Translations under genes and position numbers: made by a program | NCBI GenBank assembly: GCA_021775385.1 | Contig: JAJFHW010000389.1 | Coordinates: forward strand, 1-16,908 | Direction: 5' to 3' | Source: Hyphomicrobiales bacterium | GTDB taxonomy: Bacteria > Pseudomonadota > Alphaproteobacteria > Rhizobiales > HXMU1428-3 | Length of the DNA: 16,908 nt | Notes under the pieces: model-generated | What the model was told of the DNA's origin: nothing | Database searches by the model: none | The model's input: only the letters and a program-made list of their open reading frames with translations | Shown here: piece after piece, positions 8,087 through 11,466 of the stretch | Layout: every line of letters begins with the position of its first letter | Position numbering within the stretch: position 1 is the stretch's first letter

Positions 8087-8713
8087 ATGACACGGCGTAC
8101 TTTAAAGAGACAAATTCGCAAATTTGTAAGTGTTATGATGTTGCTTATTCTCATTGCTGGTGCTGCAAAATTTTCTACCGAATTTGGTTGTCCTTTAAAA
8201 TGGCTTGAGAGTGTTTATAAATTCATTATCGATATGTCCTTGTTGATTTTTACAATCGGCGCGGCCTATTTGGCGAATATTTTTCAACAACGTTCAAATT
8301 TTATCACCAACCTCAAAGATGAGTGGCATGAGATTGTGCGGGCTAAGTCTTCTTTGATAGTTTATCTTGATAAGCCGAACAGATCAGTTGATGATTATTT
8401 TCATGCTTATCAGCAACTTTCTCAATGTATTGATTACATGCGCATTGTTTATCGTAATGTTGGTGAGACCGATAAGTATATTGGCAAATACCCATATGAA
8501 TCTTTGCATGATATGCGCCGCTCGATTGAAAGCGTTGATCCGCGCAGAGGACAAGTTACTGAAGATGCACTGCTTGTTGCCAGGGCTGATATCTGGGACA
8601 CCTTTAATGCTTTGCGTGAGCGGTTCCTTGAAGAACTCGACTTAGAAACTCCTGAGCGCCCTATCATAGCATCGGGCGTCAAGCGCAAGAAAAAAGAAGG
8701 AGCGGCATTATAG
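8087..8713 (+). CDS. Membrane protein with cytoplasmic helical domain, unrecognised
   Basis: About 208 residues. A basic N-terminus (TRRTLKRQIRK) precedes two hydrophobic segments (about 13-29 and 44-66); the remaining 140 residues are charged and probably helical, ending in a basic KRKKKEG tail. The positive-inside rule puts both termini in the cytoplasm. I do not recognise the family. AGGAG (8071-8075) lies 11 bases before the ATG at 8087; a TTG at 8066 in the same frame lies upstream of that site and is less likely. Downstream of argG and possibly in its transcript; ends in a strong terminator that includes the stop codon. Confidence 0.7.
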   Translation: MTRRTLKRQIRKFVSVMMLLILIAGAAKFSTEFGCPLKWLESVYKFIIDMSLLIFTIGAAYLANIFQQRSNFITNLKDEWHEIVRAKSSLIVYLDKPNRSVDDYFHAYQQLSQCIDYMRIVYRNVGETDKYIGKYPYESLHDMRRSIESVDPRRGQVTEDALLVARADIWDTFNALRERFLEELDLETPERPIIASGVKRKKKEGAAL

Positions 8714-8738
8714 AACCGTTCTATATGCCTTCTTTTTT
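8704..8738 (+). terminator. Rho-independent terminator including the stop codon
   Basis: GGCATTATAGAA (8704-8715) pairs with TTCTATATGCC (8719-8729) with one bulged T, followed directly by TTCTTTTTT. The TAG stop at 8711-8713 lies in the stem. Good match to a factor-independent terminator. Confidence 0.8.
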
Positions 8739-8739
8739 G

Positions 8740-8926
8740 TGGCCCCTTCAGGTTGCCTACTAGCAACCGGGGCTATTTTGTGGCCCCTTCAGGTTGCCTT
8801 TTTAGTGTGCCTTCAGTTGCCCACTAGCAACCGGCACGAAGCATCCGCACTTTTTGATGTGCTTCAGATGCCCACAAAGCATCCGCACTTTTCGATGTGC
8901 TTCAGATGCCTACGAAGCATCCGCAC
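8740..8926 (+). repeat. Cluster of palindromic repeats, TTCA/CCAC family
   Basis: Four complete units and two half units lie between convergent genes. Complete: 8740-8775 (GCCCC-TTCA-GGTTGC-loop-GCAACC-GGGGC), 8807-8837 (GTGCC, GTTGC), 8859-8888 and 8897-8926 (GTGC, GATGC). Half units: a left half at 8781-8798 and a right half at 8838-8850. Each is an outer stem, an unpaired TTCA on the left side, an inner stem, and a loop starting CCAC or CTAC. Both stems differ between units but stay paired. Most units are preceded by a T-rich tract (TTTTG/TTTTT). All are in the same orientation. Confidence 0.85.
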
Positions 8927-8935
8927 AAGCTTCTA

Positions 8936-10405
8936 TTATTCACTGTTTTGCAAATTGGTGTAAGCGTCTAATGCGACCTGCCTGCTTGTCTTTAAATCCA
9001 CAATTGCGTCAGGGTATGTTTCACCTAACGTTACTCCCGCTTCTTTTAAAACATCTTTAGGAGCTGCTGTTGGGTTGTGGATGAATTTATTTGGCATGTT
9101 GCTCAGCTCTGGAATGAACTCCCTGATGAATTTACCTTCTTTATCAAACTTCTCGGATTGTGTGACAGGGTTGAATATTCTGAAGTAAGGCGCTGCGTCG
9201 GCGCCAGTGCCAGCCACCCATTGCCAGCCGCCAGTGTTATTTGCAAGGTCGGCGTCTAACAACGTATCCCAAAACCAGGCTGCGCCGTGGTGCCAATGTA
9301 GGCGCAAGTTTTTCACAAGGAATGAGCCTACTACCATACGTAAACGATTGTGCATCCAACCTGTTTGCCAGAGCTGGCGCATGGCTGCGTCTATAATAGG
9401 GTAGCCTGTTTTCCCCTGTTGCCACGCTTTGAGAAACTCCTCGTTTTCTTCCCATGTGAAATTTTTGAATTTATCCTGAAAAGGCTCTTCTATAATTTCA
9501 GGCCAATGGGATATGAGATGATAACAAAATTCTCGCCAACCTAATTCTCTTTGATAAAAATCAGCCCCTTCATGCCCTTCCACTTTGTGCCAAAGCTCAC
9601 GTATGCTGATATTTCCGAATGCTAAGTAGGGTGAGATTTTTGACGTTCCTTTTATGGAAGGGTAATCTCTCATTTTCTTATATGATGCGATAGGTCCTTT
9701 GAGAAATACATCTAAAACATCGCTTACATGTTCCTCACCTGGTTGCCAAAGCTGACTGAATTGAGCGGCCCAGTTTGGTTTTGCTGGTAATAACTTCCAA
9801 CTTTCTAGTGTTTCTGTTTTTGGAAAATGCTTCGGACCTGGAATGGCTTTGGGGGGTGCAATTGGTTTTGATGGCCGTTTCTGACTAAGACATGTACGCC
9901 AAAAGGGCGTGAAGACTTTATAGGGGGTGCCGCTAGCTGTTGCTATGTTTTTGGGCTCGAAGAGCAATTCCCCTTTAAAGCGTTTGCATTCAATATTTTT
10001 TTCCTGGCAAAGTTTAGCAAGTTCGTTTTCTATGTCTGCTTCACCTGACAGTACCGAATGGTGAAAATATAAGTTCTCAACATTCAACTCACTGATTAAT
10101 TCTCTTATGACATCTACAGCTGGACCAGAACGCAGCAGCAACTTACTGCCTTTTTGTTCTAGTGATTTACTTAAATTGCCTAGACTATGATGCAGCCACC
10201 AAAGACTGGCACCGCCATATTTCGTGATGTTTGGTGAATGGTTATCCAAAACATAAAGCGGTAATATAGTCGCGCCTTTTTCTTTATGTTTTGTCTCCTT
10301 ATATTTTTTCAGGGCTGCATTTAACGGAGCGTGATCAGAGATACGCAAATCTCTTCGAAACCAGAGAAGAGTGATAGGCTCTGATGATTTGTTTTTTGCA
10401 CTCAT
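8936..10405 (-). CDS. phrB: Deoxyribodipyrimidine (CPD) photolyase
   Basis: Light-driven FAD enzyme that splits cyclobutane pyrimidine dimers. About 489 residues from the ATG at 10405. The N-terminal antenna domain starts TLLWFRRDLRISDH. The C-terminal FAD domain has GYPIIDAAMRQLWQTGWMHNRLRM (about 334-357) and DLANNTGGWQW then GADAAPYFRIFNP. Counting from the ATG, W318, W371 and W394 line up, at a constant offset of 12, with the electron-transfer triad W306, W359 and W382 of E. coli photolyase, supporting an active enzyme. Which antenna cofactor it uses is not clear. An in-frame GTG five codons upstream (10418-10420) is the alternative start; GAGAG just before the ATG favours the ATG. Repeat-family hairpins lie on both sides: 9 bases after its stop and about 40 bases before its start. 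Confidence 0.93.
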   Translation of the reverse strand: MSAKNKSSEPITLLWFRRDLRISDHAPLNAALKKYKETKHKEKGATILPLYVLDNHSPNITKYGGASLWWLHHSLGNLSKSLEQKGSKLLLRSGPAVDVIRELISELNVENLYFHHSVLSGEADIENELAKLCQEKNIECKRFKGELLFEPKNIATASGTPYKVFTPFWRTCLSQKRPSKPIAPPKAIPGPKHFPKTETLESWKLLPAKPNWAAQFSQLWQPGEEHVSDVLDVFLKGPIASYKKMRDYPSIKGTSKISPYLAFGNISIRELWHKVEGHEGADFYQRELGWREFCYHLISHWPEIIEEPFQDKFKNFTWEENEEFLKAWQQGKTGYPIIDAAMRQLWQTGWMHNRLRMVVGSFLVKNLRLHWHHGAAWFWDTLLDADLANNTGGWQWVAGTGADAAPYFRIFNPVTQSEKFDKEGKFIREFIPELSNMPNKFIHNPTAAPKDVLKEAGVTLGETYPDAIVDLKTSRQVALDAYTNLQNSE

Positions 10406-10443
10406 GTTCTTCTCTCTCACGGCTATTCCATGAGCTTTTTAGT

Positions 10444-10475
10444 GGCACTTCAGATACCCACCAGCATCCGTGCTA
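10444..10475 (+). repeat. Palindromic repeat copy upstream of the photolyase
   Basis: GCAC, TTCA, GATAC, loop CCACCA, GCATC, C, GTGC: the same layout as the 8740-8926 cluster, with one imperfect pair in the inner stem. It is embedded in a longer stem, ATGAGC (10430-10435) with GCTCAT (10476-10481). It lies where the photolyase promoter should be. Confidence 0.65.
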
Positions 10476-10481
10476 GCTCAT

Positions 10482-10545
10482 GAGCCTCCGAGGGGCGGCG
10501 CTCGCGCCGGGCTGCCATGTCCTGACGCCGAAGGGGCGTCACTCC
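10482..10545. repeat. GC-rich double-hairpin block
   Basis: Positions 10491-10540 contain 39 G or C out of 50 in otherwise AT-rich DNA. CGGCGC (10496-10501) faces GCGCCG (10504-10509), and TGACGCC (10523-10529) pairs with GGCGTCA (10535-10541). It looks like an inserted extragenic palindromic element of a different type from its neighbours. Confidence 0.55.
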
Positions 10546-10563
10546 TTCTTCAATATGCGAGCT

Positions 10564-10600
10564 TTTCCCCTAAATTACCCACTAACAACGGGCCGGGAAA
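10564..10600 (+). repeat. Degenerate palindromic repeat copy
   Basis: TTTCCC (10564-10569) pairs with GGGAAA (10595-10600), and the middle contains CCCACTA followed by ACAAC, as in the TTCA/CCAC family, but the TTCA has become TAAA and the inner stem is broken. It ends 6 bases before the stop of the next gene. Confidence 0.4.
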
Positions 10601-10605
10601 CCGCG

Positions 10606-11466
10606 CTAACGCACAACGTACCATTTGCCATCGATCTTAGACCAGTATTGACCGGTTAAGATGATTTTTCCACCGTTACCGTATCTGAAATAAACTCTAA
10701 TGGGAGCTAACCCATCTTTATTTGTTATTCTTACTACTTTGCCATCAGCGTAAGGGATGACGCGTAACGGCCCTAAAGGTTCTGGCTCACCTTTTAAAAT
10801 AATCTCGCCTCTATATTGGCGTCGCTCCAACCCTTCGCGGCCGGTTAGCTTTACCATGTCCTCAAAGAGGTATTTTTCAGTTTCTCGAATTTCTGCTATA
10901 TTTTTCTTCTTAAAAGCGCGATGCAGTTTATAAACGGCGGCTTTAATTTCCCTTACGTCATGAAACTCGGCTTTGCCCTTACGCCACTCCCATTCGGGTA
11001 GCTCTGCGGCCTGAATATAGTAGGTTTTTGGCGCAACTTTCTCAGCAGTATTAACTGAGGGTATGTTTCTCTGATCGAATAATTGATTTTTTGCAATCGC
11101 ACCTAATTTGGGTTGAAAATGAACTTCAGCTTTTAAAGTCATTGTATCTGGTGACTTTGCTTCCTTCGATTTGTTCATTGTGATTTGAAGTTTGTTTTCA
11201 CCGTTTAAAAGCCAGGGCGTTAAAGAGACAGTCGTGCTTCTCTTGCTTTTACCTAGTTTGTAGTTGGTAATTGATATTCCATTTAGGATGATATTGCCCT
11301 GAACATTAAGGCCTTCAAGATGGAGGTTGTGCAGAGGGAATGGATTTGGGCGCTCAGCATTGGGGTCTTTTGGCTTCATGTAAATCATGAAGGCGGCCAC
11401 CAATGTAAATGGTACGACCACCCATAAAAAGCGCTTAACATCAAATTTAGGATTAATTTTTCCCAT
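10606..11466 (-). CDS. Membrane-anchored protein of unknown function
   Basis: A 286-residue protein with a short cytoplasmic start, one hydrophobic segment (about 13-30, FLWVVVPFTLVAAFMIYM) and a long soluble part that would lie in the periplasm. Residues 45-115 are rich in beta-type, alternating hydrophobic residues (NLHLEGLNVQGNIILNGISI); 170-205 look helical and charged; the end is again beta-rich and closes with a KIDGKWYVVR motif. I do not recognise the family. ATG start; no clear ribosome site. It lies upstream of the photolyase gene on the same strand, but about 200 bases of repeat-rich DNA separate them. The J-like gene lies 88 bases upstream. Confidence 0.7.
   Translation of the reverse strand: MGKINPKFDVKRFLWVVVPFTLVAAFMIYMKPKDPNAERPNPFPLHNLHLEGLNVQGNIILNGISITNYKLGKSKRSTTVSLTPWLLNGENKLQITMNKSKEAKSPDTMTLKAEVHFQPKLGAIAKNQLFDQRNIPSVNTAEKVAPKTYYIQAAELPEWEWRKGKAEFHDVREIKAAVYKLHRAFKKKNIAEIRETEKYLFEDMVKLTGREGLERRQYRGEIILKGEPEPLGPLRVIPYADGKVVRITNKDGLAPIRVYFRYGNGGKIILTGQYWSKIDGKWYVVR

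Follow-up and report, generated by a model that had tools for sequence, protein, structure and literature searches.

Bacteria commonly harbour small dispersed palindromes, the spread of which is, to our knowledge, mostly unexplained outside the RAYT systems. Several described systems come close to the locus considered here. IS200/IS605 elements such as IS608 and ISDra2 prefer the lagging-strand template, and the guide of REP elements is a GT[AG]G tetranucleotide 5' of the hairpin foot, according to the available part of PMC6006769. PATE-type elements bear near-terminal palindromes at both ends, and the transposase-free SMR-A repeats of Haloquadratum walsbyi insert, with no target duplication, in the near-terminal palindromes of PATEs and IS605-type elements (available part of PMC3119063). 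Short palindromic repeats inserted within other palindromes are described from the organelles of Volvox carteri (PMC2670323, in excerpt), and repetitive hairpin-forming elements with complementary substitutions between two types from sponge mitochondria (PMC2800124, in excerpt). Here, we describe a family of small bulged hairpins that lie in the loops of their own kind and of a second repeat and keep to one strand of the chromosome. They were followed from the window, the whole 16,908-nt stretch of DNA analysed, which forms contig C322 in the draft assembly of a genome (G000) of 2.88 Mb with a completeness of 78.8%.

The repeating unit is a single hairpin of about 31 nt, composed of an outer stem, an unpaired TTCA, an inner stem and a C[C/T]AC loop; together with a T-rich leader the full unit measures about 40 nt. 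In a set of 196 distinct units, for which TTYA, an inner stem of 5 bp and a 6-7-nt loop were required, 148 have TTTT within 12 nt of the hairpin foot and 172 have a loop that starts with C[CT]AC. Outer stems comprise at least 3 bp and inner stems 5-6 bp, chiefly of the GATGC, GTTGC, GGTTGC and GTTTC types, and the return arms of the 5-bp types carry one unpaired C.

All features of the window given here read on the plus strand. The main block starts with unit A at 8742-8773 (GCCCC/GGGGC, TTCA, GGTTGC/GCAACC, loop CTACTA), which scores 33.6 bits with R1, the covariance model that was built from the units and used for the genome searches. It is followed by a 5' half-unit B at 8783-8797 (GCCCC, TTCA, GGTTGC) without a matching 3' half; by unit C, at the loop position of B, at 8806-8837 (GTGCC/GGCAC, TTCA, GTTGC/GCAAC, loop CCACTA; 46.3 bits over 8807-8837); by an orphan 3' half at 8838-8850 (GCATC, C, GCAC); and by units D at 8859-8888 (GTGC/GCAC, TTCA, GATGC/GCATC, loop CCACAAA; 50 bits over 8858-8889) and E at 8897-8926 (GTGC/GCAC, TTCA, GATGC/GCATC, loop CTACGAA; 44.1 bits over 8896-8927). 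Near the start of the window, a host hairpin at 72-143 (outer GTGC 73-76 and GCGC 140-143 with one G-T pair, TTCA 78-81, inner GGTTGC 82-87 and GCAACC 133-138, CCAC 88-91) holds a complete unit at 101-130 between its CCAC and its 3' arm (TGG/CCA, TTCA, GTTTC/GAAAC, loop CCACCA; 39.8 bits over 100-130). One more unit, with a T-run leader and an inner stem GATAC/GCATC with one A-C mismatch, is found at 10436-10475 (36.8 bits over 10444-10474). Separately, 10558-10600 may be a decayed unit (CCCC TAAATTACCCACTAACAACGGG) and is absent from the R1 matches. An earlier note on this DNA had described the stems, the unpaired TTCA and the CCAC/CTAC loop, and all of them are in place in the block 8742-8926 and at 101-129; the hairpin family is thus real, and what the note overlooked is the nesting, visible in the half-unit at 8783-8797 with another unit in its loop position and the unmatched 3' half behind it.

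The nest at 72-143 recurs in the sister species G002 (L114), beside four near-identical tandem copies. At the locus of the main block, a GATGC-type host carries GGTTGC-type units in its loop, one in G002 and G006 and two in G003, and the arms of the host, although separated by the nested insert, differ on both sides between G006 (GATAC...GTATC) and G003 (GATGC...GCATC). The window has a rearranged version, in which a GGTTGC half (8792-8797) is followed by unit C and then by a GCATC half (8841-8845); judged by comparison of the locus between species, the orphan 3' half is perhaps the remnant of the nest-bearing GATGC-type host seen at this locus in G002, G003 and G006. The stretches of G007, G004 and G001 examined at this locus hold no unit.

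How general is this arrangement? A scan of the sampled stretches, L114, L119, L120 and the window returned 376 regex-defined 5' half-arms without a simple hairpin, most of them probably chance words. Complete units follow within 26 nt in 37 of the 376, and in 22 of these 37 (a count in which one nest in L114 figures twice and two loci are represented by G002 as well as G003) the matching 3' arm stands directly behind, versus 1, 3, 4 and 2 of 37 in displaced-window controls. The arm-swap control is weak (mean 14.3, maximum 22 of 37) and not decisive, because two arm types dominate; a first scan (17/355, swap mean 9.0, maximum 16) was contaminated by tandem neighbours. The flanks of unit clusters pair as well: with leader offsets, and at a 6-bp threshold picked after the first result had been seen, pairing of at least 6 bp occurs in 25 of 160 clusters versus a mean of 10.2 and a maximum of 21 in 500 swaps, and versus 6, 11 and 6 clusters when the right flank is shifted. 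The first flank test had given at least 7 bp in 9 of 151 clusters versus a mean of 4.4 and a maximum of 11, which is not significant, and at least 6 bp in 32 versus a mean of about 13. By reading, the hosts of the 25 flank-paired clusters are TTCA-type hairpins in 13 cases (three with an altered bulge), hairpins of the S repeat in six and unassigned in six. The nest junctions, likewise read by eye, mostly retain host loop residues (A, AA, TA) on the 3' side and are ragged on the 5' side, where the host CCAC is mostly lost and at times the entire 5' arm.

The S element, a second structured repeat, occupies 10416-10550 of the window. Its consensus, CTCACGG(G)CTATT ... CTTCTT, forms four hairpins and a closing helix, and uninserted copies measure 101-116 nt; a scan yielded 78 stretches, a few of them spurious or compound, of which 47 are of uninserted length, and 30 were aligned. 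For 15 of the 26 pairs predicted, this alignment has one or more sequences in which both partners are replaced, and the arms differ in blocks. By reading, TTCA units occupy the loops of S hairpins H1, H2 and H4, and in several S elements a TTCA unit substitutes for the 5' arm of H1; the copy in the window has its unit in the H1 loop, between CATGAGC (10429-10435) and GCTCATG (10476-10482). Two further repeats were observed alongside. The X element (T-run and GATCAGC...CTCGCT...GCTGATC) often fills the second S hairpin, H2, as in L161, L163, L105, L164 and L132. The M element, seen in the G002/G003 synteny (e.g., at 113372), reads CTAAAACCGGTA, has approximate inverted repeats at its termini and perhaps a CTA duplication, contains TTCA units and resembles an ordinary MITE.

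The stems vary in a correlated manner. Alignment A2 consists of 28 units hand-picked from 48 distinct units of the own genome, which had been found by TTYA, loop and a perfect inner stem with the outer stem unconstrained; 6-bp inner-stem types and some near-duplicates were left out. Four of its five outer pairs show two-sided changes, 89.6% of the cells of both stems are paired versus 75.4% after shuffling and 21-46% with partners slid, and the covariation score lies above all 500 shuffles. A set of 326 seeds, drawn from the G002 and G003 stretches and the window with only the 5' half and the loop as criteria, contains 265 whose 5-bp inner stem pairs perfectly, versus 116 expected after swapping 3' halves, and for the 149 distinct seeds the outer pairing sum is 3.72 of 5 versus 2.81 shuffled (maximum 3.08 in 500). 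Pairing is not universal, because a recurrent outer variant, GCTCC/GTCGC (e.g., L004 631-662), leaves two positions unpaired (TC/TC, or GA/GA on the opposite strand). As DNA, 8734-8928 folds more stably than shuffles (z -3.0), with unit A recovered and the other named stems not all so, and 68-146 gives z -2.1, with 10 of 200 shuffles equally good and the host stem alone retained in the fold as drawn. A loop:leader pseudoknot (leader TAGTG against loop CCACTA) was discarded, as the two parts do not covary (mean longest complement 2.993 observed and 2.993 swapped). The earlier note had held that pairing is maintained across differing stems, which the excess of covariation in both stems over shuffled controls upholds, and had taken this to point to selection on the fold. 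That second step does not follow from compensatory changes, because replication template switching can generate them too (available part of PMC8794818).

The family is abundant within one genus. In the own genome, R1 gives at least 179 matches at E<=0.1 (150 candidates scored). At E<=0.001, 11 of 61 genomes (the own genome and 60 relatives) have matches, including all eight of the genus, with at least 137, 3, 142, 132, 43, 30, 140 and 120 in G000 to G007, respectively; copy number is high in the sister genomes G002, G003, G006 and G007 and low in G001, G004 and G005. Outside the genus there is one match each in G008 and G045 and there are three in G059; the remaining 50 of the 61 genomes gave none with the stricter filters applied there, and neither did any of 288 other genomes in a class-wide sample with 25 candidates scored per genome. 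The exact 30-nt pattern occurs in 11 stretches of named genomes, all from MAGs of Hyphomicrobiales, with Methyloligella sp. DHS20C07 accounting for six. Of the regex-defined clusters, 96 of 134 in G002 and 48 of 66 in G003 are located outside ORFs of at least 90 aa, such ORFs covering about 80% of the sequence. The covariance-model search for which the earlier note had called thus brought up many copies in the genus, mostly intergenic. Copies also differ between species: the alignment of G003 C4 with G002 C1 is collinear for the greater part of 280 kb (78-96% identity per block), and of the 64 indels or gaps in this synteny, 32 of those listed contain regex units, 22 of them present in one species only, at least four of which (20858, 226795, 234785, 257953) are regex misses or noise. 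A clear species-specific case is a nested pair at G003 C4 178346, which is missing in G002.

Neighbouring units lie on one strand and not as inverted pairs, and this polarity extends over whole contigs in the genomes used, all of which are drafts. In G002, 144 of the 150 matches listed (178 found) are on the majority strand of their contig and six break the polarity. In G004, 41 of 44 are (C1 13/13, C2 18/21); the three clustered minus-strand units of C2 (293147-311443), versus 18 on the plus strand, possibly mark an inverted segment. For the own genome, 109 of the 113 listed matches on multi-match contigs agree and 34 of 38 such contigs are one-stranded. Counts by eye in stretches chosen near matches give 271/274 in 47 stretches of G002 and 113/115 in 26 of G003; one of the three exceptions in the G002 stretches is a reversed unit in an S H4 loop (L138, about 10097-10215). 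The other repeats are likewise uneven, with strand counts of 89:3 for S heads, 32:2 for S tails, 67:15 for a middle word and only 13:5 for the M repeat, versus at most 2.1:1 for control words.

In 30 of the 33 regions sampled from G002, the unit strand can be predicted from the sign of the AT skew; the exceptions are L112 (skew +0.005), L138 (a single regex unit on the opposite strand) and L133 (no regex unit). Counted per regex unit, with regex noise and the zero-skew L112 included, agreement is 184/206 in G002 and 80/84 in G003. The window has an AT skew of -0.107 and its CM-detected units on the plus strand. GC skew agrees in C1 and C2 of G002 but is close to zero in the majority of the other contigs of this genome. 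A single full 16S gene was found in G002, on C1, and it shares the strand of the units. The dnaA gene was located and is not a marker of the strand switch point, because units share one strand on both its sides. Leading strands are usually G/T-rich. Taken from AT skew and one 16S gene in static draft data, the pattern suggests that the TTCA strand carries the sequence of the leading strand, in other words the template of the lagging strand. Flanking genes fall into all four arrangements relative to the unit (++ 22, -- 36, +- 24, -+ 10 in G002; 10, 17, 12 and 6 in G003), and unit orientation follows replication and is not tied to gene direction.

What places hairpins in the loops of other hairpins? 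We favour, with a probability of about 0.5, that the units are non-autonomous, loop-targeting mobile hairpins that spread via single-stranded DNA by a putative ssDNA mobility activity. The combination of polarity, loop nesting and species-specific copies argues for a process on single-stranded DNA of the lagging-strand template. Insertion would take place on single-stranded DNA at the replication fork, with copies going into the template of the lagging strand and preferentially into exposed loops of hairpins, whether these belong to the family itself or to the S repeat. A candidate nuclease or recombinase would perform the insertion, and it would act on hairpins generally, because the TTCA unit and S share polarity; TTCA or C[CT]AC may serve as its recognition element. 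Several observations speak against such an activity: no enzyme was found, the 5' junctions are ragged, unlike precise HUH insertion, no target-site rule emerged for non-repeat DNA, and the polarity has some exceptions, including the one unit reversed in an S loop.

A possible, more tentative explanation does without a dedicated enzyme and invokes replication template switching on the lagging strand. The nascent lagging strand would stall at a loop, copy another hairpin and return 5' of the loop; slippage would account for the tandem arrays, and stems would stay paired as one arm is copied onto its partner. This accords with the junctions of most nests as read, with the block-wise variation and two-sided pair changes of the S arms, with the polarity common to TTCA units and S, and with the capacity of template switching to create compensatory changes. 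Hosts that lose the 5' CCAC and keep the 3' residues fit template switching better than precise cut-and-join, whereas dispersal to more than 100 places fits an enzyme better: it would be unusual for template switching on its own to carry a unit to so many unlinked places, and the process is universal, yet the family is found in one genus. It is also conceivable, with similar reserve, that in this genus a general, sequence-unspecific process acts on the template of the lagging strand and copies small hairpins into the loops of others, so that several unrelated structured repeats (TTCA unit, S and X) would nest mutually and have their stems rewritten as blocks. If so, a mobile unit would owe its identity to fold and strand and not to a cognate transposase.

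We think it improbable that the units are selected as RNA (terminators, mRNA 3' structures) or as polar signals (KOPS-like, chi-like) and have spread by ordinary duplication. Such selection would suit the covariation and the strong polarity, and divergent intergenic contexts are indeed the rarest (10/92 in G002, 6/45 in G003); however, orientation tracks replication and not genes, nested and species-specific copies exist, and 8700-10620 has no Rfam match at E<=1. A terminator or RNA function was rejected on the independence from gene direction. A known RNA family was likewise set aside, as the window has no Rfam match at gathering and 8700-10620 none at E<=1; so was phage cargo, the exact unit pattern giving 0 stretches in IMG/VR contigs; and so was mobilisation by a reverse transcriptase, as RVT_1 (PF00078) occurs in just two of eight genus genomes (G004 and G006) and was not found in G000, G001, G002, G003, G005 and G007.

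The search for a Y1 transposase bears on the affinity with REP elements. Y1_Tnp (PF01797) was not found in the own genome, 78.8% complete, where the earlier note had suggested looking for a RAYT-like gene, nor in G001, G002 and G004-G007, and four of these six Y1-negative sister genomes still have 43-142 R1 matches. Two PF01797 genes are present in G003 and one in G008. Those of G003 are RAYT-like and lie, by eye, amid hemagglutinin-like and toxin-immunity-like ORFs (L124 8451-9125 and 12011-12676); their 20-kb stretch has one R1 match at E<=0.5, about 3 kb off and within a large ORF. An R1-like unit of 38.8 bits at L124 5179-5210 was noticed in a 2166-aa hemagglutinin-like ORF, the frame of which stays open. 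At E<=0.5, R1 has no match closer than 1 kb to either Y1 gene of G003 or in the 20 kb around the G008 gene. A single one of the 196 distinct units bears the GT[AG]G guide 0-2 nt upstream of its foot (15 do when a 2-nt stem overlap is allowed). That the units are REP elements mobilised by a RAYT, as the earlier note had it, is very unlikely in view of the missing Y1 match in seven of eight genus genomes (a divergent HUH protein may have escaped Pfam), the distance of R1 matches from the Y1 genes that exist, the near-absence of the guide, and arrays in the same orientation rather than in inverted pairs, even though short hairpins (21-65 nt) with many intergenic copies are what REP/RAYT systems have, the bulge and the loop complement GTGG or GTAG would suit them, and Y1 genes do occur in G003 and G008.

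In conclusion, the TTCA family provides a natural system with well over 100 copies per genome, strong replication polarity, sister species of low copy number, and nests from which the order of insertion can be read. With it, one can ask whether hairpins are able to move through single-stranded DNA at the fork in the absence of a dedicated Y1 enzyme, and whether it is selection or template switching that gives rise to compensatory changes. A description of the family was not found in the literature searched, which did not reach most subscription journals; nor did that literature yield the combination, in a bacterial chromosome, of these traits in a self- and cross-nesting, strand-polarised family without a detectable Y1 gene in seven of eight genomes. 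Nested palindromes (Volvox organelles), palindrome-targeting repeats (Haloquadratum) and lagging-strand targeting (IS200/IS605) are already known. Compared with REP, BIME and REPIN sequences and their RAYT (TnpA_REP), the units are alike in being short, bulged, mostly intergenic hairpins of high copy number and lineage-specific occurrence; they differ in the foot guide, the Pfam Y1 gene in seven of eight genomes and the inverted pairs that they lack, and in their polarity and loop nesting. With IS200/IS605 elements (IS608, ISDra2) they may have in common the preference for the lagging-strand template and, as far as the available text goes, the importance of hairpins, which are subterminal there; unlike these, the unit is one hairpin, too short for a transposase gene, with ragged 5' junctions, and unlike PATE-like derivatives it has no palindrome at both ends. 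The sponge elements are also dispersed hairpins with complementary substitutions, but mitochondrial, and the word 'nested' is absent from PMC2800124. The Volvox repeats share the insertion of palindrome in palindrome; they belong to organelle DNA, and in the available part of their description neither a bulged covarying hairpin nor replication polarity is seen. SMR-A, in the text at hand, likewise consists of transposase-free repeats that target the palindromes of other repeats, at about 110 bp and with inverted terminal repeats, whereas the TTCA units of about 40 nt also target themselves and are strand-polarised.
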